Below, in pieces: positions 4,221-31,713 of a stretch of 33,280 nt of DNA (the first letter of the stretch is position 1; every line of letters starts with the position of its first letter). A model generated the notes under the pieces. It ran no database searches and had not been told where the DNA came from. It saw only the letters and a program-made list of their open reading frames with translations. This DNA comes from a virus. The stretch lies in IMG/VR virus record IMGVR_UViG_3300017987_000239, positions 1-33,280 of that record, one strand, 5' to 3'. Made by a program: the position numbers and the translations under genes.

Positions 4221-4622
4221 CTATCCATATAAAACACCAGGTATAATAGTGGCGTCAGTCCAGCCACCGCGTTCCTTGAAATGGCCTACGCCGTACTTTC
4301 TGCCCCTTGCCTCTACAGTTGCCCTGTGCGGTGCAATAATCGCAACGTGAGCGATTTTACCGCTGCGAGAACGGCGATAAAGAAGCGCTCCGGTAATGCG
4401 CTTCGCTATATCGACTTCCAATGCACCCGATTCACAGTAATCGTAGATGTTGTATGAGCCGTGCGGAAAATCGTAAACGCCGAGTTCGCGCATCACCCAC
4501 GTGACAAGCCCCGAACAGTCAAGGCCGGCATCGGGTGTCTTGCCGCCCCATCTGTAGACAGGGTGTTTCATGAAGCCGACCACCTGTGCAGCTTCACCGT
4601 AAACGTCTGTTCCGTGAATCAT
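4221..4622 (-). CDS. NlpC/P60 cell-wall peptidase (endolysin)
   Basis: 133 residues, the length of a bare NlpC/P60 domain. The catalytic Cys36 lies in LDCSGLVTWV, preceded by the typical YRWGGKTPDAG segment. His92 in AHVAII is the second catalytic residue, and His99 is a candidate third. Enzymes of this family cut the gamma-D-Glu to diamino-acid bond, or nearby bonds, in peptidoglycan stem peptides. No separate wall-binding domain and no signal peptide are seen, so release through the holin candidate is expected. The start overlaps the upstream stop as TAATG with GGGGT before it. Confidence 0.85.
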   Translation of the reverse strand: MIHGTDVYGEAAQVVGFMKHPVYRWGGKTPDAGLDCSGLVTWVMRELGVYDFPHGSYNIYDYCESGALEVDIAKRITGALLYRRSRSGKIAHVAIIAPHRATVEARGRKYGVGHFKERGGWTDATIIPGVLYG

Positions 4623-4858
4623 TAGCTACCCCATATTCTGAGGGCGATGATTACACCCGCAAGCAATCCCTGACCGCTTAGAATGAGGGTTACTACCCAT
4701 TTGTTGTGTGCCTTCATTTCATCGTACATTTCTTTTCTGTACCCTTCGCATTTTGTGGGCCAACCTTCTTTCCATTCCTGTAGCTTATTAATGCTTTTAT
4801 CGTGCGCCTCAATCTGCACGTCCTGTACTCCGTTGTGTCCGTCAATAGGTTCTGCCAT
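4622..4858 (-). CDS. Single-pass membrane protein, XhlA-like
   Basis: 78 residues. The N-terminal 50 are charged and helical (IEAHDKSINKLQEWKEG), followed by a C-terminal membrane segment (about 54-75, VVTLILSGQGLLAGVIIAL). This layout resembles haemolysin XhlA-type phage proteins that help holins. Both ends overlap neighbours as TAATG, linking translation of the giant protein, this protein and the peptidase. Function is inferred from layout and position. Confidence 0.6.
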   Translation of the reverse strand: MAEPIDGHNGVQDVQIEAHDKSINKLQEWKEGWPTKCEGYRKEMYDEMKAHNKWVVTLILSGQGLLAGVIIALRIWGS

Positions 4859-7800: not shown

Positions 7801-10497
7801 GAACTGGTCGAGCGCAACTTCAATGCCACCTATTTCGTCGTCCGTAAGCTGCGACCACACGCGCGAGTTGTACTGTGAGCGCGAACCTTCTTCAAGCATA
7901 CGCTTGTCTTCTGGACGAAAACCAACATCTTTAATCCGCTTAATCAACGCATTAAGTTTTCTATAGTATGTCCCCTTTTTATTTAACCCTGCCCTAAACT
8001 CTGCGGCAAGCTGCTCCGTTCCCTCCATTGCTTGCGCATAAGTCGGTCTGTCACCAACTCTTTTTTGAAACTCTTTATACGCTTCTGGCATATTGATTTT
8101 AAATGTTTTAATTTCTTTTTGTTTTAGACCTACGGGCGCGTCAAGAATGTCGGGTTTTAACTCTGGATATTTTCTGAGTATTTTTATTATGCTCTCACCG
8201 CCAGCAAGGTCGGCAAGCATGCTTTGAACCTTATCCATCATGGCTGGATTGTCGGCATATTTGGCATATAAAGCATAAGTTTCAAGCGGTATGTCGGAAA
8301 TATCCTCTACAAACTCAGGATACTTTTTAAAAAGATCGTTGATAGTTGTACCGCGTCCCAGCTCAGCTACAAACTCATCAACCCTGCTTTTTGTTGCAAT
8401 GTTATCGCCATAAACCCGATAAAGATATTCAATTTTATTCACTGTTCTGCTGTACTCTTTACTTGCTTTTCTGCCAAGAACAGCGTTTTTTCTGTTCAGT
8501 AAAACAATTTCTGTATATTCAGGGTCTTTAAAATCCCTTACCATATACATGTCATAGCCTTTCTTTTTGGCTTCTTGAGAACCTATCCCCTCGATTATGT
8601 CCTGAATATCATCGCCCTCCTCATATTTCGAGAAGTTTGCACCCTTATATCTTTTGTTAGCCCATTCTATAAGGCGTTTTTTAGACATGTTTTTAATCTT
8701 ATTAAACTTTTCTAACCCCAAAAAGTGCCGTGCTGCATGAACTCCAGCGCCAGCGCTAATCGCGCCTTTTCTTAATCGCACTTCTTCTATTGGGTATTCT
8801 CTTATTTCTATTTTTTTAGCGTTATGGTTAAGTCTGTACGTGTGTCTTTTTCCACCCAAATCAAGATGCGGACTTTTAACCTCTGCTGGTGTGGTGAATA
8901 AACCCTGCGGCTTTTTAAAACTTGGCTTAACGTCTGGTTCTTCAATTCGCTGTACTGTTATGGGCCAACCCTCATCAGTGGTAGATACCAGTTGTTCTAC
9001 CTCGGGTTTTAATTCTTTCTCACGTTTTTTTACATACCTGTATTTTCTCTTTTTAAGTTGCGATGAAGCGCCAGCAGCAGCAGCAGGGTTTCTTTCCCCT
9101 GACAGTATTCCGCCTTTTCCATAAACCGTTCCACGATCTGCGTTTTTTGTTTTTTTGTAAAGGCTATCAAGGTTGCGTGCTATCTCTGTATCTGATTCAG
9201 CGGTCTTAAGAATACGCATAACTTCTTTTGGATACTTCTCGTACAAAAGGTATATATCTTCGTGTATGGTTGCGGCATCCCTGATGATAGATGCGTCAGC
9301 CTGTTGTGTTCCGGGGTACATCTTGCGCGTTTCTTCAACGCCCCGCGCCTCGGACTGTAGCCGTTTCTTTAGTTCGTCAAGAACGCCCATCGGCTTTGAT
9401 ATTGTTTCTTGGAGTTCTTCTGTTCTGTCGAACTGCTTTCTAATGGCTACCGCTTCGTCGCGGTATTCTTTTTTACCAGTTCTTTTGTACTGTTCAAGCA
9501 GTTCCTTTATCCGCTTCTGTGCTGTCGGCAACTCGCGCAGCTTTTCTGTTCCTGACATTTCAGAAGAAAACTCTTTAGCAGCCTGTTCCGCGCCTTCTGC
9601 TTCGGTAAGAATCCGCGCCTTTTCCGCTTCGCCAGCTATCTCTTTATTTCTTTTTAAAAGTTTGTAAAGTTCTTTGGGCGTGGATTTTTCCAGCGTTTCA
9701 ATCGCCTTCACAAGTAACGGTATGTTGCGACTTTTGCCAGCCTGTTTGAGTGCAGCAAGCCCCTTGCCGATTGGCTTTGTGACTACGCCTGCGCCGACAT
9801 ACGACGTAATATCAAGCCCCATTTCACCGAGGAACGCTACAACCTTGTCGGGCGTGGTCAGTTCTTCTAACCCACGCGCTTCTTTAATGATGTCCTCAAC
9901 ATCCGTCTTTACTTCGCCCTTGGCTGCGCTGTAAGCAGACTTTATCGCGCCCCGCGTGGGTAACGTGGCTTCCATATACTTGGGCGACTTCTTTACAGCA
10001 TCGACCAGTACGCCGAGTCCCTTGTCTTGCAGCGCCTTGACCGCGTTTTGATATTCCGGGGAAGCTATCTGCTTTTTTGCCTTCAGTAAACCGAGGGGGT
10101 TAATTACATTTGTTACCGAGTACGGTCTTGCCACCGTGTAAAGCGCGCCAATGACCTCGGGCGCGTCCTCGTCGCTGATGTATGGAATATTCTCGTAGCC
10201 GACTTCCTCAAATCGCGTTTTAAGGAAATTCTTTAACGGTTGCGCTGTGTACTGCTCAATCTTTTCTATGATTTTAAAAAGCGTTTTCGCAGGCTTTGAG
10301 TCAAGTACCGCCCTTCCACGCGCAGCAGCTTCCATCTGCGAGGTGTACCCGAGTTTCGCGTCAAAGCGTTCGACGTTGTAGCCCTCCTCCTTGATCTTGC
10401 TGCGCCACTTTTCATATTCAGGCAAACGCCTGTTGACCGGCAGCTTATTAAATCTGCGCAGTACGTCAAGATATTCTTCGTCAGTTCGTTTAGCCAT
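4858..10497 (-). CDS. Giant internal virion / DNA-ejection-type protein (1879 aa)
   Basis: 1879 residues, by far the largest gene. It is Lys/Glu-rich and mostly helical, with Gly/Ala-rich amphipathic segments (for example FLGALALAPDSALKNLGQ near 1350 and VFGQFLTYPVKQTELIASW near 1505), as in large phage proteins that travel inside the capsid and help DNA cross the envelope. The section at about 450-860 differs in base composition and carries an internal repeat. No lytic transglycosylase or protease motif is clear. It is the third of three consecutive genes (403, 346, 1879 aa) recalling T7 gp14-gp15-gp16, immediately before lysis. The family could also be described as a large polyvalent-type protein; no active site can be assigned. 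Confidence 0.75.
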   Translation of the reverse strand: MAKRTDEEYLDVLRRFNKLPVNRRLPEYEKWRSKIKEEGYNVERFDAKLGYTSQMEAAARGRAVLDSKPAKTLFKIIEKIEQYTAQPLKNFLKTRFEEVGYENIPYISDEDAPEVIGALYTVARPYSVTNVINPLGLLKAKKQIASPEYQNAVKALQDKGLGVLVDAVKKSPKYMEATLPTRGAIKSAYSAAKGEVKTDVEDIIKEARGLEELTTPDKVVAFLGEMGLDITSYVGAGVVTKPIGKGLAALKQAGKSRNIPLLVKAIETLEKSTPKELYKLLKRNKEIAGEAEKARILTEAEGAEQAAKEFSSEMSGTEKLRELPTAQKRIKELLEQYKRTGKKEYRDEAVAIRKQFDRTEELQETISKPMGVLDELKKRLQSEARGVEETRKMYPGTQQADASIIRDAATIHEDIYLLYEKYPKEVMRILKTAESDTEIARNLDSLYKKTKNADRGTVYGKGGILSGERNPAAAAGASSQLKKRKYRYVKKREKELKPEVEQLVSTTDEGWPITVQRIEEPDVKPSFKKPQGLFTTPAEVKSPHLDLGGKRHTYRLNHNAKKIEIREYPIEEVRLRKGAISAGAGVHAARHFLGLEKFNKIKNMSKKRLIEWANKRYKGANFSKYEEGDDIQDIIEGIGSQEAKKKGYDMYMVRDFKDPEYTEIVLLNRKNAVLGRKASKEYSRTVNKIEYLYRVYGDNIATKSRVDEFVAELGRGTTINDLFKKYPEFVEDISDIPLETYALYAKYADNPAMMDKVQSMLADLAGGESIIKILRKYPELKPDILDAPVGLKQKEIKTFKINMPEAYKEFQKRVGDRPTYAQAMEGTEQLAAEFRAGLNKKGTYYRKLNALIKRIKDVGFRPEDKRMLEEGSRSQYNSRVWSQLTDDEIGGIEVALDQFRKTGDATHHARAVQILDNSQAAKNWKAVTEAGDPEASRHAADLIFGEPDDALLAGAIAEPINKETAKQLKRKFGQQGNLRDVLGELFGARTIDDLTQQEAAAFEYYMKNARKVRGKWVHDDLTRVAEGDFIKSMNMRDPLWFEKVTKTFLGSPETVMRELGIENIYKLYKTRWTEMNNKLSDLFDELRALKNETDKIEGSSREIFRALNTLPEIDEDTAKAIKEIKKVKSTKLPPELDEVVKGIRAKQIASLPEELKPAARRIMNIYDELADAQKLPWSARIVNYVTNISYDGAAKQLIDEGILDEVADGVFELSKKTMINGVPYAKGTRLDETLMSQMQKDADIPYRIRRILEFVNPKRITSRFTKKRDKSQFVAEDVWLALDRYLPTTMRKIYLDEPYQMARKIITGENTKNTAAAHVLDVFNQNIRGISRPALGGRKRGKLAQAAYGITNNVFLGALALAPDSALKNLGQGMNVVAELGGDYATRGYKMMLTPEGRKLVMDSGIIDESQIRKLVKLGKLRQISGGKYNKALDKWGDVRDKSMFMFQFAETVNRGTTYLAAYSKYLDEPVKGFKNADEYAQHIVRKLQFDYTEIDIPMALQSPVGRVFGQFLTYPVKQTELIASWIKNGETDKLDRYFRSQYMMLKAGSELNTDMTQFTGAGLSPVGFDEYTGDLEYMPPPVPNFAYKSLFYLIDKGRTGAPWGEPTSDAGKAALQDLKTLVPMHMPIVPGGRYIKKMLDQATNVSLTEKAREMGDVAEDFDKLRQFQQFGEIKSPLLYRPTTEKKRDIPKGESMLRYLASLPDLKRVEQFHRKPRDKQQSEYINKKAREQYGLMKTYKTNRVPELRERIIKLAQITGIDPVEAFKEDKRRIDAGRAGLFETKEKQYGAQKSRDLMSEVLRLEAQGKHAEALKYGRDNGLNEMSAKEINSSVKAYLRELLKAAQADPQKAKEYRILSSIFPKTALTVEEETKALQRSQ
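7920..9150 (-). other. AT-rich central section within the giant gene
   Basis: This in-frame stretch encodes roughly residues 450-860 of the giant protein and is visibly poorer in G+C than its flanks. By hand count, 8401-8460 has 20 of 60 G+C, while 9781-9840 has 33 of 60. It contains two degenerate copies of a KYPE-type repeat (about 704-739 and 761-789) and a segment ending KKGYDMYMVRDFKD...TEIVLLNRKNAV that resembles the C-terminal part of ADP-ribosyltransferase-like domains in polyvalent phage proteins. It may be a domain acquired by recombination. The edges are approximate. Confidence 0.5.
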
Positions 10498-12753: not shown

Positions 12754-13091
12754 TTGTACACCTCGATTACTTCACTTATGAATTTAGCCGTATCGTCTGC
12801 CATTTTGGTTAATTCCTCTGCGGTCTTGTCGTCGGTATCTTTCGTGTATCCGAGTCTCAGCCACCAGTATGAACAGGTATGCCGTGTCGCCAGCACAATC
12901 GGACACTCGCGGCAGTTCAAGAGCCGTGCTTCGCCTTTCGTAACGTACTTCCGGTACTTCGGGCATAGACCGCAATCGTTCTCTTTTTGTGTTTGTAGTA
13001 GTACCCCTTCCTGCTTATCTCTTTTGTATGCTTCAGCAACCTGCTTCCATTTATTTACTTCGGCTGTTAAAAGTTCTGTAACATTTGTCAC
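12741..13091 (-). CDS. Cys-rich hypothetical protein within the tail/ejection block
   Basis: 116 residues, beginning with GTG inside the stop of the upstream gene (GTGA). The middle holds a Cys array (CGLCPKYRKY, then NCRECPIV, then HTCSYWW), five Cys in about 40 residues with two CxxC-type pairs, which suggests a small metal-binding knuckle or a disulfide-bonded domain. Both flanks are helical. It is an unusual protein to find between a fibre-like gene and the ejection trio. Function unknown. Confidence 0.6.
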   Translation of the reverse strand: MTNVTELLTAEVNKWKQVAEAYKRDKQEGVLLQTQKENDCGLCPKYRKYVTKGEARLLNCRECPIVLATRHTCSYWWLRLGYTKDTDDKTAEELTKMADDTAKFISEVIEVYKWAI

Positions 13092-13804
13092 GGGCGCACC
13101 TTGCTCGTATGCTCATACCAGAAAAAATCGTAACTGAGCCAGTTGTTACTCACCGTATCATTTTCAATATAGAAACAGTAATTCGTGTCCTGCTTGCCTA
13201 TAAATTCGTGTTCATGTGTTTCGCTGCCACCAATCTGTTTTCCACTACCCGCCTTTGCGCTGTAAACCAGTGTCCCGTTTGTGTTCACGGTTGGCCCCGA
13301 AAACGCAGTAACACCAGCAGTGTTGGCACTATTGCGGTTGTTGTTAATCGGGGTAATCTGAGATCCGCTTGCGCTGACAGCACAACCCTCGTACATCGAG
13401 AAAGTAGCTTCCGCTTCCGTCGCTAAGCCCCAGAATGCGTGAGGCCACTTCGTTGTGTTTGGAACAGTGAAAAGAAACGTGGCTGTCGAACTGCCGCCCA
13501 TGTCGGTTGTGCCAGCTATAAAGTAGTGGTCGCCAGAATGTATCTCATGGTGCGAATAATCAATAACTTGCAGCGTGTGCGTCATGTTGTCGACTTCCGC
13601 AGGGTAGCCACCACTGTCATAGATAATTACAGTACCGCTCGAAAACTCAACCTTCTTCGTATCCGTCGCTATGTCCACCACGTGCAACGCGTTGTCTTCA
13701 ACGACAGCAAAATTGCCGGTTCCAGAATCGCTTATCGGGACAGCAAGCGCACTAACCGAGGTCAGTAATAACAGGATCAGCGTTGTTGTCAATACTGTTC
13801 TCAT
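13088..13804 (-). CDS. Phage virion beta protein with Sec-type signal peptide
   Basis: 238 residues. Residues 1-21 are a textbook signal peptide: basic start, a TLILLLL core, and a VSALA site before VP. The remainder matches from memory a common phage virion-associated family with the blocks HHEIHSGDHYF (85-95), NNNRNSANTAG (154-164) and a closing WYEH (229-232). The exact role in that family (decoration, fibre or tail) is not established. The ATG has GGAG seven bases upstream, so the signal peptide is not a start error. It overlaps the upstream gene by 53 bases. Confidence 0.7.
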   Translation of the reverse strand: MRTVLTTTLILLLLTSVSALAVPISDSGTGNFAVVEDNALHVVDIATDTKKVEFSSGTVIIYDSGGYPAEVDNMTHTLQVIDYSHHEIHSGDHYFIAGTTDMGGSSTATFLFTVPNTTKWPHAFWGLATEAEATFSMYEGCAVSASGSQITPINNNRNSANTAGVTAFSGPTVNTNGTLVYSAKAGSGKQIGGSETHEHEFIGKQDTNYCFYIENDTVSNNWLSYDFFWYEHTSKVRP

Positions 13805-13970
13805 ATTCTTTCTCCATAACTATTTTAAGTGCGTTTAAATACTCGTTATCTTTTTCAAGTGCCTCTGGAATACCCTGCGCTACTAAACGCTTATCGCCGT
13901 CATACATGGCTATTTTAACAATGTTCTGACCGTCTACCTTTTCCTTCTGCTTCTTGAATTTGTTAGGCAT
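13752..13970 (-). CDS. Small acidic/basic hypothetical protein
   Basis: 72 residues. The ATG at 13970 overlaps the upstream stop (TAATG) and has GGGAGA upstream; a longer in-frame start would lie wholly inside the previous gene. The N-terminus is Lys-rich, the middle looks like a short beta hairpin (NIVKIAMYDGDKRLVAQG), and the rest is acidic and helical. The ribosome site and start of the next gene lie inside its 3' end. Function unknown; it may be a chaperone or linker for neighbouring fibre-like proteins. Confidence 0.55.
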   Translation of the reverse strand: MPNKFKKQKEKVDGQNIVKIAMYDGDKRLVAQGIPEALEKDNEYLNALKIVMEKEYENSIDNNADPVITDLG

Positions 13971-14695
13971 TAAGCTATCTCCCTGTACATACAAGTAATC
14001 TTTATGTTAAGGTCTGTGCTTCCACCAAGATAAACAGTCGTGTTTAAATTAGAGCCATTAGGCCAGTTAATGAGCAGGTCTAAACCGCTGCTGTCTGCTC
14101 CGAAAGCCATTATCTTTTCAAACTCTGTAGTCCCGTCTATCTTAACCTGTACGCGCACCGGTATGATTATAGAAAGCAATACCTGCGCCGTGGGATCATT
14201 TAAACCGTCAAGGTGAATGCTCGTTACAACACGCTTGTTACCGCTGCTGTTCGTCGCATTGCTCGACGAGTCGCCAGTCCAGTCTGCCGTCACCGTACCG
14301 TGTGCAAACCGTTCCGCTTCCGCTGCGTTGTAATTTAGCGCATCGGTTGTCCATACCTGTCTATCAGGATCGTCACCCGCTGGCTGCACGTTGCCACTTC
14401 CGTCTACCTGCTGCGATTTCTGTGACCCATCAGTCTGATTAGATGCTGTAGCTTTTCCTGTAGTGTCACATGCTGTAATTTTTCCGTCGATCGAAGAAAG
14501 ACTTGCGTTACCAGTAGCCTGATTCGCGGCAGTAGCCACCTTCCCGTTAAGCGTTGTTAACTCAGCAATTTCAAGTACTTGGTTTGCAGCCGTTGCCGCA
14601 CCCGTTGGAAGCGGCAAGGTACCCGAAATCTGGACAGTCCCGAGCTGGCGGGTAATGTCATCAACTATCTTCTGTACCTGTACTATTCCAAACAT
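13970..14695 (-). CDS. Tail/fibre-type structural protein with ATAANQ repeats
   Basis: 241 residues. Residues 30-90 contain the repeated pattern typical of phage fibre/structural proteins, alternating ATAANQ-type and L-x-x-L/I-D/N-G-K blocks (ELTTLNGKVATAANQATGN, then SLSSIDGKI). The C-terminal half is beta-rich and may be a receptor- or partner-binding domain. The ATG follows GGAG and overlaps the upstream stop. Neighbouring genes are fibre-like, so a distal tail role fits; which part of the virion it forms is not visible. Confidence 0.65.
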   Translation of the reverse strand: MFGIVQVQKIVDDITRQLGTVQISGTLPLPTGAATAANQVLEIAELTTLNGKVATAANQATGNASLSSIDGKITACDTTGKATASNQTDGSQKSQQVDGSGNVQPAGDDPDRQVWTTDALNYNAAEAERFAHGTVTADWTGDSSSNATNSSGNKRVVTSIHLDGLNDPTAQVLLSIIIPVRVQVKIDGTTEFEKIMAFGADSSGLDLLINWPNGSNLNTTVYLGGSTDLNIKITCMYREIA

Positions 14696-15057
14696 CAGTA
14701 CTCCGTGTAATCTATTCCAGTAACCTTCCCGGCTGCATCGTATGTGTACGTCACGTTAATCGTTTTGTAAAGTTCTCCAGCCTTGTAAATCTTTATCTGC
14801 ATCGAGGCTAAAAGGCTCGAACTGTCGTAGTTGTACGTTTCTTCATAGACTTTAATTGTTTTGCCGGTATCGCCGTAAACCGTCCACTGATTCACAAGCC
14901 CGGTTGTCGCGTCGTATTCGTATCCTTCGTGGTCGCCAGCGTTCAGGTGAATGGATAAGTCAACCAGGTGCCTGTTTACGCGGTCTTCAAGCTGTCGCAA
15001 TCGCTGTTCTGCATTGCCACCTACAACCGGAAAAGGTTGTGTCTGGTTCATGCTCAT
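14695..15057 (-). CDS. Small beta-rich tail-associated protein
   Basis: 120 residues. A short helical start (QRLRQLEDRVNRHLVD) could form a trimeric coil. It is followed by Tyr-rich beta strands with two YD-type stretches (YNYDSSSLLASMQIKIY, then VTYTYDAAGKVTGIDY) resembling YD/RHS-like hairpins. A coiled start plus beta strands suits a small trimeric fibre component. Starts and stops overlap both neighbours, so it is co-translated with fibre-like genes. The family is not recognised. Confidence 0.55.
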   Translation of the reverse strand: MSMNQTQPFPVVGGNAEQRLRQLEDRVNRHLVDLSIHLNAGDHEGYEYDATTGLVNQWTVYGDTGKTIKVYEETYNYDSSSLLASMQIKIYKAGELYKTINVTYTYDAAGKVTGIDYTEY

Positions 15058-15974
15058 GGTGTCGCGGTCCCCTTAAACACAATGCTGCTTGACGCCAAAA
15101 AGCCGTTAAGCTGGTTACATATCATTCCGTCTGGCGTGGCCCCGCTTGCTGAAATACAGATAAACTTGACCGAGTGGGTTCCCTGCGAGATCCCGATGTT
15201 TAGTGTCTGATTTGTGTCTGCTGCCCCGTTCTGTGTGTACTCGTTGGCGTCATCCACGAACACGGCTATATAGTCATCAACGGATGGTATGTAAAGATTG
15301 AGCGTACTGGTCGATAAAGCCTCTACTTCCATTCCGAGATAAAGGCTCATGTTGGTTCCACCCGGCATTTTGTACGTTCTGTTGAACTCACCCGAACCTG
15401 TAACCAATGCTGCCTCTGACTTGTAATTACTTTGGTAATCGCTGAGTGCTGTGTATGCTGCGCCGGGTTTGTACCGCTGCATGTAATGATACGTCGTAGT
15501 GTCGGCCGACGAAGCGTTTCCGAGACCGACATAATCCGCAATCTCTGTAAGCTGCCCTGCCACCGTATCAGTCGCGTAGTCGCCCGGAGTAACGCTGATA
15601 TTGCTTGCATCGTGGGAGTGCATCGCATCGGCGTTGCCGACAGCAGCGTTACAGTCTGATACCGTCTGCCAGTCACCAGAGCAGTCTAACTTTGTGTCAG
15701 CGATAGCAGCCGAACCGGATATATCGGCATTAACTATTGTGCCGTCCTTGATGTTCGTGGATTCAACATTGCCGTTAAACTCAGTTTCAAGTGCCGTCCA
15801 GTTTGACATATAAAGCGCTGGTGTCCGTGCTGTGCCGTCAACGGGTCGATACGGTGCCGTGAACGTGCCTGAAAACGCATATTCAAACAAAACAGCGCCC
15901 ACCATATTAAGCAGTAGCGCAGCGACAAATATCACACCTATCGCACCTATGGAATTTAAAAGTTTTCTTTTCAT
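15054..15974 (-). CDS. Fibre-like protein with N-terminal signal anchor
   Basis: 306 residues. Residues 1-10 are basic, and residues 11-31 are strongly hydrophobic (AIGVIFVAALLLNMVGAVLF) without an obvious cleavage site, so a membrane anchor is as likely as a cleaved signal. Residues 77-96 carry the fibre motif DGTIVNADISGSAAIADTK, well known in phage tail fibres. The C-terminal half is beta-rich. It overlaps the nozzle gene stop by ATGA, with GAGGAA before the start. A membrane anchor on a fibre is odd and could mean surface display or assembly at the membrane. Confidence 0.6.
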   Translation of the reverse strand: MKRKLLNSIGAIGVIFVAALLLNMVGAVLFEYAFSGTFTAPYRPVDGTARTPALYMSNWTALETEFNGNVESTNIKDGTIVNADISGSAAIADTKLDCSGDWQTVSDCNAAVGNADAMHSHDASNISVTPGDYATDTVAGQLTEIADYVGLGNASSADTTTYHYMQRYKPGAAYTALSDYQSNYKSEAALVTGSGEFNRTYKMPGGTNMSLYLGMEVEALSTSTLNLYIPSVDDYIAVFVDDANEYTQNGAADTNQTLNIGISQGTHSVKFICISASGATPDGMICNQLNGFLASSSIVFKGTATP

Positions 15975-17857
15975 GCCGGGTTCCTCTTTATCTTGAAATA
16001 GGTCAGCGCGAAGCCGTAAAAACTGGCGTGCTTGTCACCGCTGATATTGAAGCCAACATACGCGCCAGCCATCTCTTGACCGTATGGAAGCGTCCTGCTT
16101 GCTTCTTCTGTTCCTTCCCAAAAGTCGCCTGTGTCTGACCACTCATCGCCACTATCAGCCCATTCGTCACCGGTCAGCGTCAAGTCGAACTCATCTGTAT
16201 ATACGCCGTAATTCAGGACATCTACTTTTGTCGTGAATGTTATTGTCGCAGTCGCGCCCGCGCCTGTTGCCGTAACATCGTCAAGTACTTTATCACGGAG
16301 TTTGTCGCTAAAGTCGGACTTGCGGGTTTCGTATTCCCAAGTGTAATCTGTCGAATCGTCTTGTATGCCTATATTGTCTTCGTAGTAGACATACTCGTTT
16401 TTTGAAGCTGTGAATATCCTGTTTCCATCGCCGTTGACAGCAGATTCAAAGCCGTAATCGTATTCAGACCACGGCGAAATCCTTAAATCGTTGACGCACT
16501 CTACGCGGTAAACAAATGTCTTTTTGTTGTAATCTGAATCGTTTTCAGGGACACTCAATTCGTACTGCTCAAAAAACGGGTTCCACAGCCCACACGCATA
16601 CTGCAACTTGCTTATCTGATTGTCGAGTATTCCGCGATTGAAGCCATGCGCATCCCTGTTAATTTTCCGAGATATGTTTTCAGGCTTACTGTAGCCGTCG
16701 AACTCATATACGCCGTCCGAACCGAGCCACCTGAGTATTCCAGCGCAGTTTGCGAGAGACCTGTCAGCAATACAGTCGATACCCCACTTTTTATCAATTA
16801 CAGCAAACGGTTCAGCATCACCAACAATAAGGAACAGTTTCGATTCGGTAAGCACGACAAGCGCGTTTTCCGTTGCAAAACATGTAAGTATATTTTCATT
16901 ATTCTGCGGGTCCATATTAAGCGGTGTGCTGCCGACCACACTTGATTCATTGTACCAGTCACCGGGACGCCCCTGTACAGTACGATAAAGATATGAACCA
17001 CTCCAGCCCCACAACCGGCTTTTCCACATCGCTATACCGCTTAATATTACCGGGCTAAAGTCGGTGTCTAATACTTCGCCCTCGTTCAGATAGCGTCCCA
17101 CCGCGCCCATGTCAGCTTCGGCGGTATTATCCGTGTACGTGGTGGACGTATTCGGTAGGTCTATGCCACCGCTGCCGTCCAGGGGACACGCCTTGTAATC
17201 CAGCGCATTGCTTGAACGTCTGTATATTCTTATGTAGGTTGCTTCACCTGTGGGGTCCGCTACGACTGACACATCAATCTGTTTGCTGGATACCGTGATG
17301 TCAGCCCTTGAGGAATAACGTGATTCTGCCTCATAGCCAGTAACAGCATCGACGTAAACGTAAACATAAACATACTGATAACCCCCTGTCAGGCCCCCTG
17401 CTCCACCGTCTGCAATCGTTGGCGCAGCACTCGGCGCAGCGATTGACATGTTCGTCCATGTGGTTCCGTTAAACTTTTTATTCGCGTCTACGCCGTTGCA
17501 AAACCAGAAATAATTCAGGTATGAAACTCCGTTTGAGCGCGTGTTATTTGTCAGCCCGGTAAGCGATGCTGTAGGCGAACCACTAATATCGCCATCGTCA
17601 TAAAGCGTGTCGCCTGCCCCCACCAGCATGTGCGCTGAATCGTTTACGTCTACAAACCAGTGTTTTGAGTGAATGGGCGCCGGAAGCGTAGAGCGCGTTG
17701 TGCGCCCGGGCCGTGCGGTAAAACCACCGTCTTTGTTAAGGATTATATTTTTCGCGATTATTGATTCGTAGAACTTCTCGCCATGCTTACACCTTACGGG
17801 GTCGCGATAGTTCAGCCCGTAAAATATTTCCCTGTTGTAGTCATATTTTCTCGGCAT
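15971..17857 (-). CDS. Tail nozzle/stabilisation protein, T7 gp12 or P22 gp10-like
   Basis: 628 residues, the right size for a beta-propeller tail protein. The N-terminus has the family pattern GLNYRDP (14-20), then a segment leading to KNIILNKDGGFTARPGR (about 36-52), comparable with the GLN...N-hydrophobic-DG-x-RPG signature of nozzle proteins. The remainder is a long run of beta strands rich in Gly, Trp and Tyr. It follows the adaptor gene, the same order as gp11-gp12 in T7-like phages. It would close the tail channel. No other role is suggested by the sequence. Confidence 0.7.
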   Translation of the reverse strand: MPRKYDYNREIFYGLNYRDPVRCKHGEKFYESIIAKNIILNKDGGFTARPGRTTRSTLPAPIHSKHWFVDVNDSAHMLVGAGDTLYDDGDISGSPTASLTGLTNNTRSNGVSYLNYFWFCNGVDANKKFNGTTWTNMSIAAPSAAPTIADGGAGGLTGGYQYVYVYVYVDAVTGYEAESRYSSRADITVSSKQIDVSVVADPTGEATYIRIYRRSSNALDYKACPLDGSGGIDLPNTSTTYTDNTAEADMGAVGRYLNEGEVLDTDFSPVILSGIAMWKSRLWGWSGSYLYRTVQGRPGDWYNESSVVGSTPLNMDPQNNENILTCFATENALVVLTESKLFLIVGDAEPFAVIDKKWGIDCIADRSLANCAGILRWLGSDGVYEFDGYSKPENISRKINRDAHGFNRGILDNQISKLQYACGLWNPFFEQYELSVPENDSDYNKKTFVYRVECVNDLRISPWSEYDYGFESAVNGDGNRIFTASKNEYVYYEDNIGIQDDSTDYTWEYETRKSDFSDKLRDKVLDDVTATGAGATATITFTTKVDVLNYGVYTDEFDLTLTGDEWADSGDEWSDTGDFWEGTEEASRTLPYGQEMAGAYVGFNISGDKHASFYGFALTYFKIKRNPA

Positions 17858-17863
17858 AGCATA

Positions 17864-18700
17864 TCAGTAGTCAACATTGAAACCATACGTGCCTTTAGCC
17901 GCCCGTGACGTTCGGTACATTCCGTAAGCCTGTCGTGCGGTTTTAGCGCGTGGCTGGTAATCTGGAACCTTGCTCAAATCGTCATAGAACTGTATTACTT
18001 CTGCTTTCTTTTCCATGTACTCACGCTTCGCAGCGATGTACTGGTTTTCGTTCATGTAACCGCCGATGAAGCCCTTGTACGATGCGCGGAAAACTACTCC
18101 GCGAACAAGCACTTCAGAAAGCGAGCGGATGATATTCGCAGTATTTGATCCGCTGTTGGTGTACTGCGTTGATAAAAAGTAATAACGGACTTCGCCGTCT
18201 GCACTATCAGCAGGGTTAGGCTGGAACCATATTATCTTTCCGCTTCGCCCCGTGCTTCGTGAATTCTCGTCAGAATAGTCAACAAAGTAATGCTGCACAA
18301 GCCCCGTGTAGGAAGCGTCAAAGTAATCAGTTGTACTGATTTCCAAGTCAGCGTTATTCGTTTCCTCGTCCGTTGTTCCAGCCGTAGCCTTTTCCTGAAA
18401 CAAATCTAGTTCGGCTGGCGTGGATGGCAGATAGCGAAGCCCGTTTATATGTACGCCCTCGTCCTTATCAATCATTATCAAGTCAGCAGGCAGGTCATAA
18501 ATCCGCGCACCGTTGCGAGTCTCGATATAACCGCGCCCCACAAACTTAAAAGTTTTCTTCTCAAAGCCAGCCTGCACGCCGATTTCATCAAGTGTGTTGT
18601 TGGCCCACACAAGTTTCTCGTCGTTGGTGTAGCGACGTGCCAGGGGGTCTGAGAGCAGGTAGCCTGCCTGTGTCCTGATTTCAGTGATATTGAGCGACAT
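17864..18700 (-). CDS. Head-to-tail adaptor, T7 gp11-like
   Basis: 278 residues. Residues 5-45 show the adaptor pattern: helix with Ala/Leu, then LSDPLARRYTNDEKLVWANNTLDEIG, i.e. the short L-x-D-x-x-x-R-(Y/W)-(S/T)-(D/N)-(D/E)-E-L pattern seen in phage adaptor proteins. A beta section near 55-170 and a C-terminal helical part with many Tyr and Arg follow. It would form the ring between portal and nozzle. Immediately upstream of the nozzle gene, it starts inside the stop of a 59-residue gene (TAATG). Confidence 0.7.
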   Translation of the reverse strand: MSLNITEIRTQAGYLLSDPLARRYTNDEKLVWANNTLDEIGVQAGFEKKTFKFVGRGYIETRNGARIYDLPADLIMIDKDEGVHINGLRYLPSTPAELDLFQEKATAGTTDEETNNADLEISTTDYFDASYTGLVQHYFVDYSDENSRSTGRSGKIIWFQPNPADSADGEVRYYFLSTQYTNSGSNTANIIRSLSEVLVRGVVFRASYKGFIGGYMNENQYIAAKREYMEKKAEVIQFYDDLSKVPDYQPRAKTARQAYGMYRTSRAAKGTYGFNVDY

Positions 18701-18879
18701 TATGCGTCAACTTCCTCGATTGTTATTACCGCCTTGACATACGCCTTCCGGTCAGCGGGAACGGTGTACGAAAGAGTGTCACCGCCTGTCGTGACCTGAA
18801 ATGTCTCGGTGGCTATAAGTTCGTCCGTGAGGTCTTCTGTTAAAACCTTACGGGCATCATCCCAACTGAGTGTAGCCAT
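18700..18879 (-). CDS. Small structural-type protein, 59 aa
   Basis: 59 residues. The ATG at 18879 begins MATLSWDDARKVL, and the rest is short beta strands (TFQVTTGGDTLSYTVPA, then AYVKAVITIEE) like a small immunoglobulin-like or head-tail connector subunit. Its stop overlaps the adaptor start, so translation is coupled. A second 59-residue gene precedes it. No family is recognised, but the frame, tight packing and clean coding sequence support a real gene. Confidence 0.6.
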   Translation of the reverse strand: MATLSWDDARKVLTEDLTDELIATETFQVTTGGDTLSYTVPADRKAYVKAVITIEEVDA

Positions 18880-18891
18880 GCTTCACCGCCC

Positions 18892-19071
18892 TTAGTCGTT
18901 AAGATCAATCGGGTCAGGGACAGACACGGCGAGAACTGCTTTAACCAGAATCGTGTTCGGGTCACTCGGATTGGCACCGATCAATGTCGGGTCTTCCGAA
19001 ATGGTCTGTCCCGCGCCATCCTGTACAACGATCTTCTGTGCTGACGCATTGTAGATCAACTTCATAGCCAT
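18892..19071 (-). CDS. Small structural-type protein, 59 aa
   Basis: 59 residues from the ATG at 19071 (AAAGGAG nine bases upstream) to the TAA at 18892-18894. It is acidic, beta-rich and Pro-containing (DPTLIGANPSDPNTI, then VPDPIDLND). An alternative ATG eight bases upstream stops after five codons. It lies between the large fibre gene and a second 59-residue gene. Function unknown; by position it could be a small neck or decoration subunit. Confidence 0.55.
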   Translation of the reverse strand: MAMKLIYNASAQKIVVQDGAGQTISEDPTLIGANPSDPNTILVKAVLAVSVPDPIDLND

Positions 19072-19087
19072 TTGTTCATTCTCCTTT

Positions 19088-21121
19088 CTATGGCACTACT
19101 ACATCGTACGTATCTGTAGACCAAAGCCATTGCGAACCACTGGCGTAATACAAACATGTGTGTACACTGTCTGTAGCAGCACCACCATTTAGCCCTACCC
19201 TTGCAAATGACATCGTAGAGTCACATGTAGGAAGAACGTTAACCTCTGCCAGACGCATAGGCTTTGAATAGTCAACGCTTTCATTTTCACCATCGAGCTG
19301 AAGATATTCAGTAAGAGATCCGCCCTGTGCGACAGAAAGCTCTATCCGCCCTTCCTGAACACCGGCGGAAGGGTCTGCAACATCTACGGTTATCTGTGCG
19401 TATATCTGGTCAACTGTTCCGGCATCGTTAGGCCCGTTAAACGATAGCGTACCTACGTTTGTGCCAGCATTGGCTGCCTGACTTGCACCACCACTCTGCT
19501 TAACCTTCTGAAACTTAATTGCAACCGGGGCAGCATCCCCGTTATAGTCGTTAACGAGCATCAATCCACGCCCTGTATTCTGTTGATTGAGCATGTGTAC
19601 GTTGTAAAACGAATCATATACGCCAAGGGTATTTAAATAATCAGTATTGGTACCAAGAACAACTTCGCCAGTAGCATAAAGGTCATCGCCTATTGAAATA
19701 TCAGTGGTAAAACTACCAGTAGCAGCAGCTATCCCTCCGTCTATTGTAATATTCCCATTAGATATAAAGTCGTAGGCTATTCCGCTCGTTACACCAAGGG
19801 TTAAATCCCTGTCTTTGCCGTCCAGTTCAAGCACGTCATGCTTTGTGGTAGTGCTGTTGTTTGTCAACAGCCTCCACGTAACTTTACCGGCAGGACTCGC
19901 AGTATCATTTTCTGAAACGGTATATTCGACAAGGGCAAACCTGTCGTTGCCAGAAGCCTTGTTGCCAATGAAAACATGAGTGGCAATCACATTATCGTCA
20001 CCCGTACCAGCAGAATCCACATGGGTTATAGTGGCAAGCGAAGTGTCGTTCACCTGTAGCGTAGCGTCACCGTCCGTACCGTCTGAATTTGTAGAAGAAA
20101 ATTCAGCACAGTTGTTTTCAGCAGCACCCATGCAGAATTCGCTTACCCCATTATGTCTAATACGAAAACCGTTCGTAGTACCACCGTACTGACCTATCAT
20201 TGCAAAGCCAGTTGTAGGTGTTACATTGTTACGTGCTATAAATGATGTTCCACCATCGTGCCGAACCTGCCCCTCGATAGCTGCCGCATATGGGTTGTAC
20301 GTGTCCTGCCAATCAGACGGCAGGTCAACGCTGATCGGGTAAACTGCATGGACGGTATCAACCTCATTCGCTCCAGACCATTTGTTACCTTGTCGGAACT
20401 CAAAGCCAATAGTCGCGCTTGAAGACCGCACATCTATGCTTTCGCCCTGTACTGTGGTCGCACTCGCCACCGCTGCCTGAATGTAGCTGTCGGTGATTAT
20501 CGCCCCGGTCGCGCTCATGTAACCCGTAGAGTTCACGTTCTGAAAACTGCCGTTCTGGCTCCCGTCTACCACTGTAGCGTTATTCACTATGATGCTGCTC
20601 GCGCTCGCGTAACCAGAAATATCAAGATCTGTTCCACCGCTTATACTTCCACTCGCGTAGATATTCCCGCCATGCCACGTATGGCTCGCGAAAAACGCCT
20701 CGCTTGCAAACTTGTTTCCCTGCGCGCTGAGTCCGGTTAACGCGCTGCCGTCACCGAAATATATCGGAGCACTCGCGTAGGCGTCAGTCACAATCGCGCC
20801 TGTCGCGCTTATGCTCCCACTCGCCCACAGGTCGCCGCCTATGAAAACATCTGTCGCGAATATATTGTTGAATGATCCAGAGCCAGCAGCGTAAATTGAG
20901 CCGGAAGCATATATATCGCCCGTTGAGGCATCAAGTGAAATGCTTTTGCTGGCAAAGGTTGAACTCGCCCAGGTTGTAATGTCCTGTTCGGTACTTATCG
21001 CGCCGATGTGGTCGCTGCCCCTGTGCGTGTGCCTCCATCTTGAAACCTGTGCCAAGGACGGCGCAGACATCGCGAAAATCAGCAAAGCGACTAATGCCAA
21101 TGTATATTTTTTAAACCCCAT
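19088..21121 (-). CDS. Large fibre-like protein with Sec-type signal peptide and YASGSI repeats
   Basis: 677 residues. Residues 1-24 are a signal peptide (MGFKKY, then LALVALLIFAM, then a SLA site before QV). Residues 68-215 contain several copies of a (D/N)-(I/L)-(Y/W)-A-S-G-S-I pattern spaced about 30 or 60 residues apart, typical of trimeric phage fibre shafts. A long beta-rich part follows, with a further DDLYATGEV copy near 480 and a C-terminal domain with Cys residues (CDSTMSF, then HTCLYYASGSQW). The ATG has GGGGTGA upstream. It is probably a tail fibre or surface fibre; the signal peptide is unexplained. Confidence 0.7.
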   Translation of the reverse strand: MGFKKYTLALVALLIFAMSAPSLAQVSRWRHTHRGSDHIGAISTEQDITTWASSTFASKSISLDASTGDIYASGSIYAAGSGSFNNIFATDVFIGGDLWASGSISATGAIVTDAYASAPIYFGDGSALTGLSAQGNKFASEAFFASHTWHGGNIYASGSISGGTDLDISGYASASSIIVNNATVVDGSQNGSFQNVNSTGYMSATGAIITDSYIQAAVASATTVQGESIDVRSSSATIGFEFRQGNKWSGANEVDTVHAVYPISVDLPSDWQDTYNPYAAAIEGQVRHDGGTSFIARNNVTPTTGFAMIGQYGGTTNGFRIRHNGVSEFCMGAAENNCAEFSSTNSDGTDGDATLQVNDTSLATITHVDSAGTGDDNVIATHVFIGNKASGNDRFALVEYTVSENDTASPAGKVTWRLLTNNSTTTKHDVLELDGKDRDLTLGVTSGIAYDFISNGNITIDGGIAAATGSFTTDISIGDDLYATGEVVLGTNTDYLNTLGVYDSFYNVHMLNQQNTGRGLMLVNDYNGDAAPVAIKFQKVKQSGGASQAANAGTNVGTLSFNGPNDAGTVDQIYAQITVDVADPSAGVQEGRIELSVAQGGSLTEYLQLDGENESVDYSKPMRLAEVNVLPTCDSTMSFARVGLNGGAATDSVHTCLYYASGSQWLWSTDTYDVVVP
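20477..20920 (-). repeat. In-frame repeats encoding YASGSI-type fibre shaft
   Basis: Degenerate DNA repeats with cores such as CTCGCG(T/A)A on the plus strand recur through this stretch and encode the YASGSI / WASGSI / MSATGAI motifs of the fibre protein. Clear copies lie near protein residues 70, 99, 155 and 201. Two copies continue as ISATGAIVTD and MSATGAIITD, so a larger unit of about 100 residues may be duplicated. The repeats stay in frame, as in fibre shafts, and are not a CRISPR array. Confidence 0.6.
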
Positions 21122-21131
21122 ATCTCACCCC

Positions 21132-21506
21132 TTATACGAACGCGCTTTTAGAAATATCAACGTCGCTGAACGGTTCAAGGTAAATGTCGGCATCTTCCGC
21201 AGCGTCAGCGTTGTAGAACCTGATTTCACATATCGCCAGGTCTTCCGGCATCAGGTAGTCGTCGCCAGCATAAATCCACGGGTCACTTGCGCCCGGGTCT
21301 AACGCTGTGGCTGCGCCTGATTCAGCATAAACCCTGAAATGAATTTTCCCTGAGTGTGCCGCTGCTGCGTCGGCGCGTATTCTTAACCGTTTGCACCATG
21401 ACGGCTTACTGTCTGCATCAAGAAAGGTTGCTTTCTTTACCGCTGCGCCAGCAGCTACGACAGTTCCCTTCATGGCAGTGGTTGGTCTACACGGTAAACT
21501 TTTCAT
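21132..21506 (-). CDS. Small beta-rich virion-type protein
   Basis: 124 residues. The ATG at 21506 overlaps the upstream stop (CGATGA) and has GGGAGGA just before it. The product is Ala/Asp-rich with predicted beta strands (KIHFRVYAESG, then ICEIRFYNADAAEDADIYLEP), similar in style to small phage decoration or head-fibre proteins. No signal peptide. Located between the DUF115 protein and the large fibre. Family not recognised. Confidence 0.55.
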   Translation of the reverse strand: MKSLPCRPTTAMKGTVVAAGAAVKKATFLDADSKPSWCKRLRIRADAAAAHSGKIHFRVYAESGAATALDPGASDPWIYAGDDYLMPEDLAICEIRFYNADAAEDADIYLEPFSDVDISKSAFV

Positions 21507-22435
21507 CGTATTCCTCCCTGCGCTAATTTACGTGTTATGTAATCTTTCATTGAATTCATACTGAAATGGGGAGAAATCCACAGCGCGCCGTCCGACATGT
21601 CAAACAGCCCTATCCCCATAAGCGTATACTGCTGCATGAACAGCCAGTAATAGTTTGGTATCGCGGAAGCAAACGCCGGTATGGTGTAAAAATCGCGGCC
21701 GTCTGGTAGTTTTGAGTGTAGTAACGTATTGCCAGCGTAATGCCCTTCAGCTTTTGGTATATCGTCTTCGCTGTGCCACCCGCAATCATGTCCTATCAGG
21801 TATATGGATTCGCCACCCCATGAACGCTGAATCATCCAGTGGCATAAGTCCGTGGCAACAAGCCCAACGACACTTCCAGACCGCAGCGAAAACAACTTCT
21901 TAGGATAGTTCTTGTACAAGTAATTAGATGCTTCAGAAAACGGGTTAATCGGGATATAAAAATAAACATGTCCCGCTTTCTCAACCACCATATCAACGAC
22001 ATCAGGTGCCTGTATTAAACTCATCACAACGGTATCGTTTTCGTCCACGTCCTCAAAGAACATGCCGACACGCGGCGTGGGGTCTAAACTAACGGTCATG
22101 TCGGGCTGTATGCCATGCTTTTTCAACACTGGCAGCATATGGTCGCACGTTACGATTTTTATGCCTGATTTTTGTAAATCTGAAATACCGTCCAGATTGT
22201 CGTGTGCCGACTTTCCGGCACCCACACACATAATGCTGTAATCGTCCCACGTCCCGAACAGGTCAGATATATACGAATCATCGCTAAGATGCCGCGCATT
22301 TATGACCGCGTTCTGTTTCCAGTTCGGGTTAAAGGAAGCAAGGGCGATGCGGGAGTTTACCCGCAAAGCCCCTTGAAATTCTTCCGAGTGACCCCAAATT
22401 TCTGGATTCATCCATGTGTCAGGATCAAATTTCAT
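21503..22435 (-). CDS. DUF115 / MptE-like (Maf-type) protein
   Basis: 310 residues. The ATG at 22435 has GGAG upstream; the in-frame TTG at 22438 is less likely. It shows the DUF115 pattern in order: CVGAGKSAHDNL (70-81), KIVTCDHMLPVLKKHGIQPDM (about 93-113), SLDPTP (116-121), GSVVGLVATDLCHW and then IYLIGHDCGW. In known members this fold occurs in 6-hydroxymethylpterin pyrophosphokinase MptE and in motility-associated (Maf) proteins linked to flagellin sugar transfer. It sits in the virion block between small structural genes. A role in modifying virion or host-surface glycans is possible; substrate unknown. Confidence 0.75.
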   Translation of the reverse strand: MKFDPDTWMNPEIWGHSEEFQGALRVNSRIALASFNPNWKQNAVINARHLSDDSYISDLFGTWDDYSIMCVGAGKSAHDNLDGISDLQKSGIKIVTCDHMLPVLKKHGIQPDMTVSLDPTPRVGMFFEDVDENDTVVMSLIQAPDVVDMVVEKAGHVYFYIPINPFSEASNYLYKNYPKKLFSLRSGSVVGLVATDLCHWMIQRSWGGESIYLIGHDCGWHSEDDIPKAEGHYAGNTLLHSKLPDGRDFYTIPAFASAIPNYYWLFMQQYTLMGIGLFDMSDGALWISPHFSMNSMKDYITRKLAQGGIR

Positions 22436-22450
22436 CAATGCTCCGTTCGC

Positions 22451-22720
22451 TCAGAGTATGCCGATAGCGTTCCACTTGTATGAAACAGCTCCGGTTACTC
22501 CAGATGCAGTCAGGATAAGGTTTTCACCAGAAATGCGGCACTGGACAACTGCGCTTGCTGCGCTTGATCCACTTTCAGGACAAGCCCACGCAGACTTAAT
22601 TTCTGTTAGACCAGTTGCTACTGAGCCGCTTGTCGCGCCAGTGATTGCCTTATCGTTAGATTTCCAGCGAAGGCCGTTACCAGCCAACTCTCGAATCGAA
22701 AGATCAATTCCTTCAGACAT
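22451..22720 (-). CDS. Small beta protein, related to its upstream neighbour
   Basis: 89 residues. The ATG at 22720 has AAGGAGG upstream in a leader closely resembling that of the neighbouring gene. The C-terminal half (VVQCRISGENLILTASGV, then YKWNAIG) has the same layout as the C-terminus of the neighbour: hydrophobic-C, a polar gap, I-V/L-L-T-A, then W-x-A-x-G. This suggests duplication. Unlike the neighbour it has no signal peptide. Probably a small virion or head-surface protein; family not recognised. Confidence 0.6.
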   Translation of the reverse strand: MSEGIDLSIRELAGNGLRWKSNDKAITGATSGSVATGLTEIKSAWACPESGSSAASAVVQCRISGENLILTASGVTGAVSYKWNAIGIL

Positions 22721-22734
22721 TACTAAGTACCTCC

Positions 22735-23130
22735 TTAATTTTCGCCGTATCCGTAGGCGGTCCAGTTGACAGCTGTTGCGCCTGAGGCCGTGCCACCAAC
22801 TGTGTCAGCCGTCAGGACAATTTTGCCCCTGTTGGTTGAACTGGTCTGGTCTGGAACGTTGCAGTAAACAAGGTGCGCCGGGGTGGTAGCTGCGTTAGTG
22901 GAAATGCTTGATACACAGCTTTCTACCCAGTATAACTTCGTAGTCACGGTAGCAGCAGTCTCATCGGTTAAAGCCTGCGTACCGTCGTCGTTCCAGTCGA
23001 CACCAGCCTGTGTGCCTACGAGATATTTGAACGTCCCGCCGCCGCCGGTAAGGCTGATTGTTGCAAACGCGGTAATGGTTCCCGCCAGCAACACCGCTGC
23101 GACGATAACAAATGCCTTAAACTTCGTCAT
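22735..23130 (-). CDS. Small beta protein with Sec-type signal peptide
   Basis: 131 residues. Residues 1-23 form a signal peptide (KFKAF, then VIVAAVLLAGTI, then a TAFA site before TI). The mature part is beta-rich and Thr-rich with two Cys (SCVSS, then YCNVP), ending with IVLTADTVGG and NWTAYGYGE, which align with the end of the next gene's product. AAGGAGG precedes the ATG. Located just after the capsid genes. A secreted or envelope-inserted role is implied by the signal peptide, but nothing identifies it. Confidence 0.6.
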   Translation of the reverse strand: MTKFKAFVIVAAVLLAGTITAFATISLTGGGGTFKYLVGTQAGVDWNDDGTQALTDETAATVTTKLYWVESCVSSISTNAATTPAHLVYCNVPDQTSSTNRGKIVLTADTVGGTASGATAVNWTAYGYGEN

Positions 23131-23634: not shown

Positions 23635-24903
23635 TTATCCGTAAGTCACGAAACCCTTGAGTCTCAGGTGAGGCGGTCTGTACTGCAGAGCCGCGCTGTC
23701 GCTGTTGTACGTGAAGTCGATCGTCGGCGACATTTCCAGGCCAATCGTGGTTTCCCACACGTCTTTGCGCCCGGACACTCCGGGAAGCTGCACGTTCCTT
23801 TTCAGCCTTGTCCCCATGTTCGGGATATGGCGCAGACCCATGAGCTTCACATCAAGTATTGCTGCCTGGGCTGACATCGTTCCGCCGTACGTGCTGTTGG
23901 TCGCGCCGAAGCCCTCGAAAATCTCCTTCTCGGTAATGATTTCGAGCCTCTTGCCGCCACTGGTGTACTCGGTGATTTTCATGCCGTAGGACTTAGATTT
24001 CTGGTCGTTGAACATTACTTTGTTCTTAGCAATGCTGGTGAAGGCGTTACCCATGTGCCGACCACAGAAAAGAACCTTGTCGTCGCTGCCGTTATAGAAC
24101 GCACGTTCCATAATCAGGTCGATGGCTTTTTCTGTAAGAACGCCGCTGTAGGCCGTGGTCAGGTCATAGTAGTCGCCCAAGTGCTGGAAGACACCGCCAG
24201 TTGTGCTTACCGGCTTTCCGAATACCGGGCACGTGGTTTCCTCATGCCTTGAAGAAAACCAGAGAGTTGAGTTGACTTCGCGTACGTGCTGCCTGGCCTG
24301 CTTCTTTCTGGCATAGTCCCAATCGTTGCCGTACTCGGTCGTGGTGTGGATGTCGTGTTCAGACGCCTCAACAGCAGTCCTGACAAACGACAGGTAGTTG
24401 TAGCCCGTAGAGGGCTGATTGGTGATAGCGTCCGGCGCGTCCGTACCTTCTGCGGATGCAAGACCGAGGATTCTCAACACGTCGTTGTTAGCGGTCGAAG
24501 ACGACGCGCCGCTGAGTACTGAACCCCAGTCACGGGTTACTGTCACCGTGTCGCCGGACACGTCGGTAATTCTCATGCGCTCATCGGTCATTTCGTTGTA
24601 GAGCATCATCCCTGCCTGCAGGATGTCTCCGTCACCGCTGGTCACATCAAAGTAGGTGTCCGTCGCACCAGAGATCGAAGATATTGCCGTTGATTTCTTT
24701 CGGTCAACGTCTTCGGCACACTGGAACTTTTTGGTCTTCGTCTCTTTACCCAAGCCCTTTCCCAGCTTGTAAAGAAGACGGAAAAGCGAATCATCCCCGT
24801 CGGAATATCCGAACTCGGGATTAAAAATCTTGTCTGAAAAATTCAGTGGACGTAGCCCTGAAGGTACACTTTCAGTCGTCCTCTGACCCTGTATAGTTGC
24901 CAT
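23635..24903 (-). CDS. Major capsid protein, SU10/phiEco32-like
   Basis: 422 residues, a normal size for an HK97-fold capsid protein of this group. Features: an early loop with FNPEFGYSDGDDSLFRLLYKLGK (about 27-49), the beta-domain GDGDILQAGMMLYNE with VTRDWG, a helix with EASEHDIHTTTEYG and WDYARKKQARQHVREVNSTLWF, and a C-terminal LEMSPTIDFTYNSDSAALQ section. From memory this matches the SU10 major-capsid family. The position after the acidic scaffold and portal agrees. GGAGG lies nine bases before the ATG. No internal protease gene is seen, so maturation may rely on scaffold release. Confidence 0.85.
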   Translation of the reverse strand: MATIQGQRTTESVPSGLRPLNFSDKIFNPEFGYSDGDDSLFRLLYKLGKGLGKETKTKKFQCAEDVDRKKSTAISSISGATDTYFDVTSGDGDILQAGMMLYNEMTDERMRITDVSGDTVTVTRDWGSVLSGASSSTANNDVLRILGLASAEGTDAPDAITNQPSTGYNYLSFVRTAVEASEHDIHTTTEYGNDWDYARKKQARQHVREVNSTLWFSSRHEETTCPVFGKPVSTTGGVFQHLGDYYDLTTAYSGVLTEKAIDLIMERAFYNGSDDKVLFCGRHMGNAFTSIAKNKVMFNDQKSKSYGMKITEYTSGGKRLEIITEKEIFEGFGATNSTYGGTMSAQAAILDVKLMGLRHIPNMGTRLKRNVQLPGVSGRKDVWETTIGLEMSPTIDFTYNSDSAALQYRPPHLRLKGFVTYG

Positions 24904-28703: not shown

Positions 28704-28739
28704 GAAACATAATGTGTGACAATGAAGGGACGGTGTTTT

Positions 28740-31658: not shown

Positions 31659-31683
31659 CTGTATACCCTTTCTTTTAACCCAC

Positions 31684-31713
31684 ATTCTATATCACACGTG
31701 ACAAATCTGTCAA
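31684..31713 (-). promoter_or_regulatory. Promoter candidate for the GroES-like / XRE genes
   Basis: On the minus strand, a perfect -35 TTGACA (31713-31708) is followed by TAGAAT at 31689-31684 with an 18-base spacer (five of six matches), or TATAGA with a 16-base spacer. Transcription would begin just before the GroES-like start and read through the XRE regulator. Confidence 0.55.

Follow-up and report, generated by a model that had tools for sequence, protein, structure and literature searches.

Clustered N-terminal export signals on fibre-type late proteins of a tailed phage and their recurrence in unrelated phages

Tailed phages are, in the textbook view, cytoplasmic assemblers. Filamentous phages are put together at the membrane, from coat proteins held there, and their virion proteins pIII and pVIII carry Sec signal peptides. 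The DNA considered here, unlike theirs, belongs to a tailed phage with a portal, a terminase and an SU10-type capsid, for which assembly in the cytoplasm is expected. Closer to the role proposed below for its proteins are T5 Llp (PMC9586334) and Rtp45 (PMC12685063), exported phage-coded proteins that block adsorption to debris as well as the receptor used by the phage itself. Both are small lipoproteins rather than fibre modules, whereas the proteins described here have no lipobox and are encoded in the virion block; known exclusion proteins are moreover small, and many are expressed early and not from the structural operon (PMC9586334). In its genomic setting, Lom of phage lambda provides a parallel, since it is exported and is encoded between the tail spike and tail fibre genes, so that exported cargo in a late region is known (PMC12309495). 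Lom differs in being an outer-membrane beta barrel, expressed in the lysogen from a single gene, and in not being a fibre module.

The late operon and its four hydrophobic N-termini

The window, by which we mean the whole stretch of DNA analysed, is one entire IMG/VR record from a tailed phage (positions 1-33280; 33,280 bases). Its minus strand forms one long late operon. The features of interest are as follows.

4221-4622, NlpC/P60 endolysin, a gene apart from the four signal-bearing genes
13088-13804, minus strand, P0001, 238 aa, Sec signal peptide and conserved beta-sandwich domain, phrog_5335 (DYxHHEIH...WYEH family)
13742-13804, minus strand, P0001 signal peptide, residues 1-21, predicted cleavage between SALA and VP
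13752-13970, minus strand, upstream 72-aa ORF, its last 53 nt overlapping the P0001 signal-peptide codons in another frame
15054-15974, minus strand, P0002, 306 aa, N-terminal anchor and fibre motif DGTIVNADISGSAAIADTKL (phrog_2012 minor tail protein, E 1e-4)
15870-15974, minus strand, P0002 hydrophobic anchor, residues 1-35, a single helix (3-35) in the model
15971-17857, minus strand, tail/virion protein (phrog_511), its stop overlapping the P0002 start
17864-18700, minus strand, SU10-type adaptor
19088-21121, minus strand, P0003, 677 aa, fibre-type repeat protein with signal peptide
21050-21121, minus strand, P0003 signal peptide, residues 1-24, predicted cleavage between PSLA and QV
22451-22720, minus strand, 89-aa probable paralogue of mature P0004, no signal peptide
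22735-23130, minus strand, P0004, 131 aa, signal peptide and Cys pair
23062-23130, minus strand, P0004 signal peptide, residues 1-23, predicted cleavage between TAFA and TI
23635-24903, minus strand, major capsid protein (Pfam SU10_MCP)
26553-28403, minus strand, SU10-type portal (Pfam SU10_portal)
28716-30293, plus strand, large terminase

Peptide-pattern scans of IMG/VR found no close relatives of the portal, tail protein or terminase of the window, whose proteins are about 20-28% identical to those of isolates. No tRNA was found in the window, and neither an integrase nor genes for DNA replication were recognised there; the record may be partial. A GroES-like co-chaperonin is encoded at 31308-31685 on the minus strand (Pfam Cpn10, E 1.5e-4), with no GroEL gene recognised in the window. 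An MptE-like domain protein (21503-22438, minus strand; E 1e-16) lies in the virion block between 22735-23130 and 19088-21121, and a 1879-aa protein (4858-10497, minus strand), for which only a weak family match was obtained (phrog_37402, E 2e-6), is possibly an ejected internal protein.

A preliminary description of the window had proposed Sec signal peptides in three late genes and a long hydrophobic anchor in a fourth. All four ORFs are present on the minus strand with the coordinates and starts that it gave, and both proposals are confirmed. P0001, P0003 and P0004 begin with MRTVLTTTLILLLLTSVSALA, MGFKKYTLALVALLIFAMSAPSLA and MTKFKAFVIVAAVLLAGTITAFA, followed beyond the predicted cleavage sites by VP, QV and TI, respectively. 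All three have the n-region, the h-region and the AxA-type site within the first ~30 residues that characterise Sec/SPase I preproteins. P0002 begins with MKRKLLNSIGAIGVIFVAALLLNMVGAVLFEYAFSG, in which a KRK n-region precedes a hydrophobic stretch of ~22 residues with no convincing cleavage site. This charged-hydrophobic N-terminus is most likely an anchor, as judged from its sequence; an AlphaFold2 model of P0002 alone is confident for the N-terminal helix only.

The signals were scored with a rule-based predictor that looks for a positive n-region, an 11-residue uncharged h-region and a small-x-small site, and that, when checked on seven known Sec proteins, recovered the signal peptide of every one. 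Of 27 window genes it selected the four and a 76-aa two-helix holin-like membrane protein; composition shuffles passed at rates of 0.23% (all genes) and 0.38% (the four). Signal-peptide-like starts occur in 4 of 28 window ORFs, compared with 16 of 739 (2.2%) ORFs around relatives that have no signal peptide. None of the four proteins has a Cys among its first 40 residues, and a lipoprotein reading was rejected for want of a lipobox Cys. A signal-arrest-release endolysin or spanin was likewise rejected, as no lytic domain was found in the four.

Could translation, in P0001 if not in the others, really begin beyond the hydrophobic segment? Such a wrong start would explain why the P0001 signal and 13752-13970 overlap by 53 nt. 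It is nevertheless hardly credible, in agreement with the preliminary description: GGAG stands 7 nt before the P0001 ATG, an in-frame internal start preceded by a 4-base Shine-Dalgarno match is absent from codons 1-80 of all four genes, and seven other members of the P0001 family in the tree described below have signals of their own. For the same lack of an internal start with a ribosome site, a dual cytoplasmic and exported product was rejected. The claim that every ATG has a good ribosome site was slightly overstated. It holds for P0004 (AGGAGG, 8 nt) and P0001, but the site of P0002 is moderate (AGGA, 7 nt) and that of P0003 weak (GGTGA only). P0002 starts at 15974, in overlap with the stop of the preceding gene (ATGA).

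The fibre motif of P0002 is a common tail-fibre motif. Peptide-pattern scans of IMG/VR found no relatives of P0002 or P0003, and tblastn of P0002-P0004 against isolates gave no matches. That such signals are unusual for the late genes of a tailed phage, and that they sit on fibre-type modules, is supported by the sequences.

P0001 and its relatives

The core of P0001 matches phrog_5335 by sequence (E 3e-7), a match found in 49 of 66 aligned members of the family. From residue ~48 onwards P0001 is 42% identical to a protein of contig L002 (L002:9389-10102), which starts MALPKSTVDRERKKF and is without a signal; for the core, identity to L002 lies at 42-46%. Because the core thus matches relatives that have none, we regard the signal as an addition to P0001. 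A family scan with the motif DYxHHE[IV]HxG led to about 100 viral contigs, in which the members mostly begin with polar N-termini and have no signal. Own Sec signals are found in the members of L018, L019, L052, L069, L079, L089, L103 and L104, giving seven complete and one truncated signal-bearing member besides P0001. The signals of these eight contigs are unrelated in sequence; most end in AxA-type sites, many then followed by Q.

In a maximum-likelihood tree of 82 cores, P0001 groups with two signal-less relatives, of which that of L002 is closest. The distribution of signals on the tree needs six label changes, at least five of them forced by well-supported branches, and we therefore conclude that the trait arose or was lost repeatedly. 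The preliminary description had held that homologues starting after the hydrophobic segment would speak against a signal. For P0001 this is borne out in part: 74 of the 82 tree rows are without a hydrophobic start, but seven others have a signal peptide of their own, different from that of P0001. Most of the P0001 signal is encoded by the first 53 nt of 13088-13804 (13752-13804), which overlap the end of the upstream gene, and the signal may therefore stem from overprinting.

Three contigs show further peculiarities. In L018 the signal-bearing family member (L018:604-840) is only 78 aa long and ends inside the conserved domain, which suggests frameshift or decay. L103 has tandem signal-bearing copies (L103:6817-7461 and 7519-8127), the first strongly diverged (EYHNHEW compared with DYEHHEIH). 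In L047 two signal-bearing proteins (L047:76-792 and 710-1219), the former resembling by eye a ClpP/S49-type protease, are encoded directly upstream of a signal-less P0001 relative.

AlphaFold2, given 66 relatives, models P0001 residues 90-235 as a confident beta sandwich (pLDDT about 97 over most of it), the first 60 residues not being reliably modelled. A structure search against the PDB gave no match at E<=0.001; the fold search returned uncharacterised phage proteins, including proteins of LIMEzero and CVT22. The profile of P0001 relatives correspondingly matches ORF57 of Pantoea phage LIMEzero (E 1e-11) and gp25 of Citrobacter phage CVT22 (E 1e-9). Isolate homologues surfaced through the fold search and the profile only, tblastn of P0001 and two relatives against isolates having found none. 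They are annotated as hypothetical only, and the isolate members of phrog_5335 examined have no signal peptide, in contrast to P0001 and the members in the eight metagenomic contigs. In Klebsiella phage ZCKp20p the family gene, without a signal, lies just downstream of the capsid gene; in other isolates it lies away from recognisable structural genes, as would suit an accessory decoration. Exactly two core Cys residues are present in 6 of 8 signal-bearing members and in 17 of 75 others (p=0.005, in a post hoc test).

Signals in the late genes of other phages

Export signals are not confined to the P0001 family. On contigs with a signal-bearing family member (n=8), signals are also present in 12 of the 67 remaining ORFs that are 100 aa or longer, compared with 16 of 739 on contigs with a signal-less member (n=84), an odds ratio of 9.9 (p=4e-7). 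Counting by contig is safer because the ORFs of one contig are not independent; a further signal-bearing ORF is then found on 7 of 8 contigs versus 14 of 84 (p=9e-5). Five consecutive genes of L018, close to a tape-measure gene, bear signals; L103 has three signal-bearing genes, and L019, L052 and L104 have two each. The preliminary description had seen in the recurrence within one operon a system rather than chance. This is supported by the clustering of signals in late genes: several genes together appear to make up a system that recurs in unrelated phages. Restriction to one host type is not indicated. Shine-Dalgarno sites are absent from L018 (0 of 10) but in use in the window and in most of the remaining signal-bearing contigs.

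The signal-bearing genes are surrounded by genes for tape measures, portals, capsids, terminases and tail fibres and consequently look like part of virion blocks, of long-tailed as well as short-tailed type. The 780-aa signal-bearing protein of L018 matches tail fibre phrog_8745 and has an internal match to cyanophage tail fibres, and a 253-aa signal-bearing protein of L069 shares the P0002 motif NAD(I/V)..AAIA(D/Y)(T/S)KL. These surroundings bear on the possibility that the proteins are morons, that is, accessory cargo of the late operon which alters the host surface, as Lom does, or secretes enzymes or adhesins and is unrelated to the particle. Exported cargo in a late region has its precedent in lambda Lom, and the P0001 family is scattered across unrelated phages and genome positions, as morons might be. 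The genes are, however, collinear and tightly packed with virion genes, the modules are of fibre type and common to annotated tail fibres, and there are several signal-bearing genes per phage. We consider the moron explanation distinctly unlikely.

The recurrence also bears on whether the hydrophobic N-termini might be particle anchors, inserted for example in a capsid or tail socket, that resemble signals by chance. The N-termini of homologues are highly variable, as attachment peptides would be, and P0002 has no clear cleavage site. Against this, about 20 proteins whose mature parts are unrelated share the positive n-region, the length of the h-region and the AxA-type site, the last often with Q after it. 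Moreover, it is established Sec/SRP biology that hydrophobic peptides of this kind are probably captured by the export machinery, which would be expected to take such an anchor anyway. Resemblance by chance is accordingly very improbable.

Possible roles of the putatively exported proteins

Given correct starts, established Sec biology leads us to infer export of P0001, P0003 and P0004 and anchoring of P0002. Our favoured explanation, to which we assign a probability of about 0.5, is that these are genuine Sec-export signals on adhesin- or fibre-type late modules that act in the envelope or the medium in a shielding role. Late in infection, the host Sec machinery would export P0001, P0003 and P0004, signal peptidase I would cleave them, and P0002 would remain anchored in the inner membrane, facing outward. 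Folding would take place beyond the cytoplasm, perhaps with formation of a disulphide, and the site of action would be the envelope or, once the cell has lysed, the medium. By occupying surface ligands that virion-borne versions of the same modules bind, they would shield both infected cells and debris against progeny of the same phage or against competitors. As neither a lipobox nor an outer-membrane domain was recognised, the proteins would in a two-membrane host be periplasmic until lysis, which weakens the case for shielding before lysis.

Alternatively, the four proteins may be virion parts that mature in the periplasm, forming disulphides and folding as trimers, and that bind the outside of finished virions at lysis; the particle would not acquire its outer fibres or decorations until periplasm and cytoplasm are mixed by lysis. 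The genes lie among head and tail genes, late in the virion block, with P0002 in stop-start overlap with a tail gene. The signal-less family member of ZCKp20p is beside the capsid gene, signal-bearing members are beside portal genes in L089 and L104, and Cys pairs are weakly enriched. The isolate homologues, on the other hand, are annotated as hypothetical only, and several lie outside the structural block. We know of no tailed-phage precedent for such maturation; a literature search gave no direct report of exported virion proteins in tailed phages, which counts for little by itself. Periplasmic maturation of the four is thus possible but unlikely, and we slightly prefer the adhesin and shielding role, in view of the missing precedent and the accessory look of the modules. 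The broader proposition, that the particles of some tailed phages are completed outside the cytoplasm, with Sec-exported fibres or decorations joining virions at lysis, we regard as rather doubtful. If true, it would amount to a two-compartment assembly route, repeatedly evolved by the addition of signal peptides to existing virion modules.

Other suggestions of the preliminary description fared less well. No evidence points to virions assembled at the membrane or in the periplasm, and insertion during DNA delivery does not follow from a Sec signal, which acts in the producing cell and leaves insertion into a subsequent host unexplained. That the four are particle proteins of the window phage was not substantiated, gene position and fibre motifs being all that speaks for it.

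Independent export signals in several unrelated phages suggest deliberate export of adhesin-like proteins: some phages may ship them out of the infected cell besides building them into particles. The repeated, clustered signals on fibre-type late proteins thus point either to exported adhesins that manage re-adsorption or to periplasmic virion maturation, and either reading would have consequences for the recognition of receptor-binding proteins in metagenomes.

The window itself offers a possible case of both forms. Mature P0004 and the signal-less product of 22451-22720 align with a score of 61, compared with a mean of 30 for shuffled sequences and reached in 0 of 5000 shuffles. The two are probably paralogues, and one phage seems to make a single small module in two copies, one exported and the other not.
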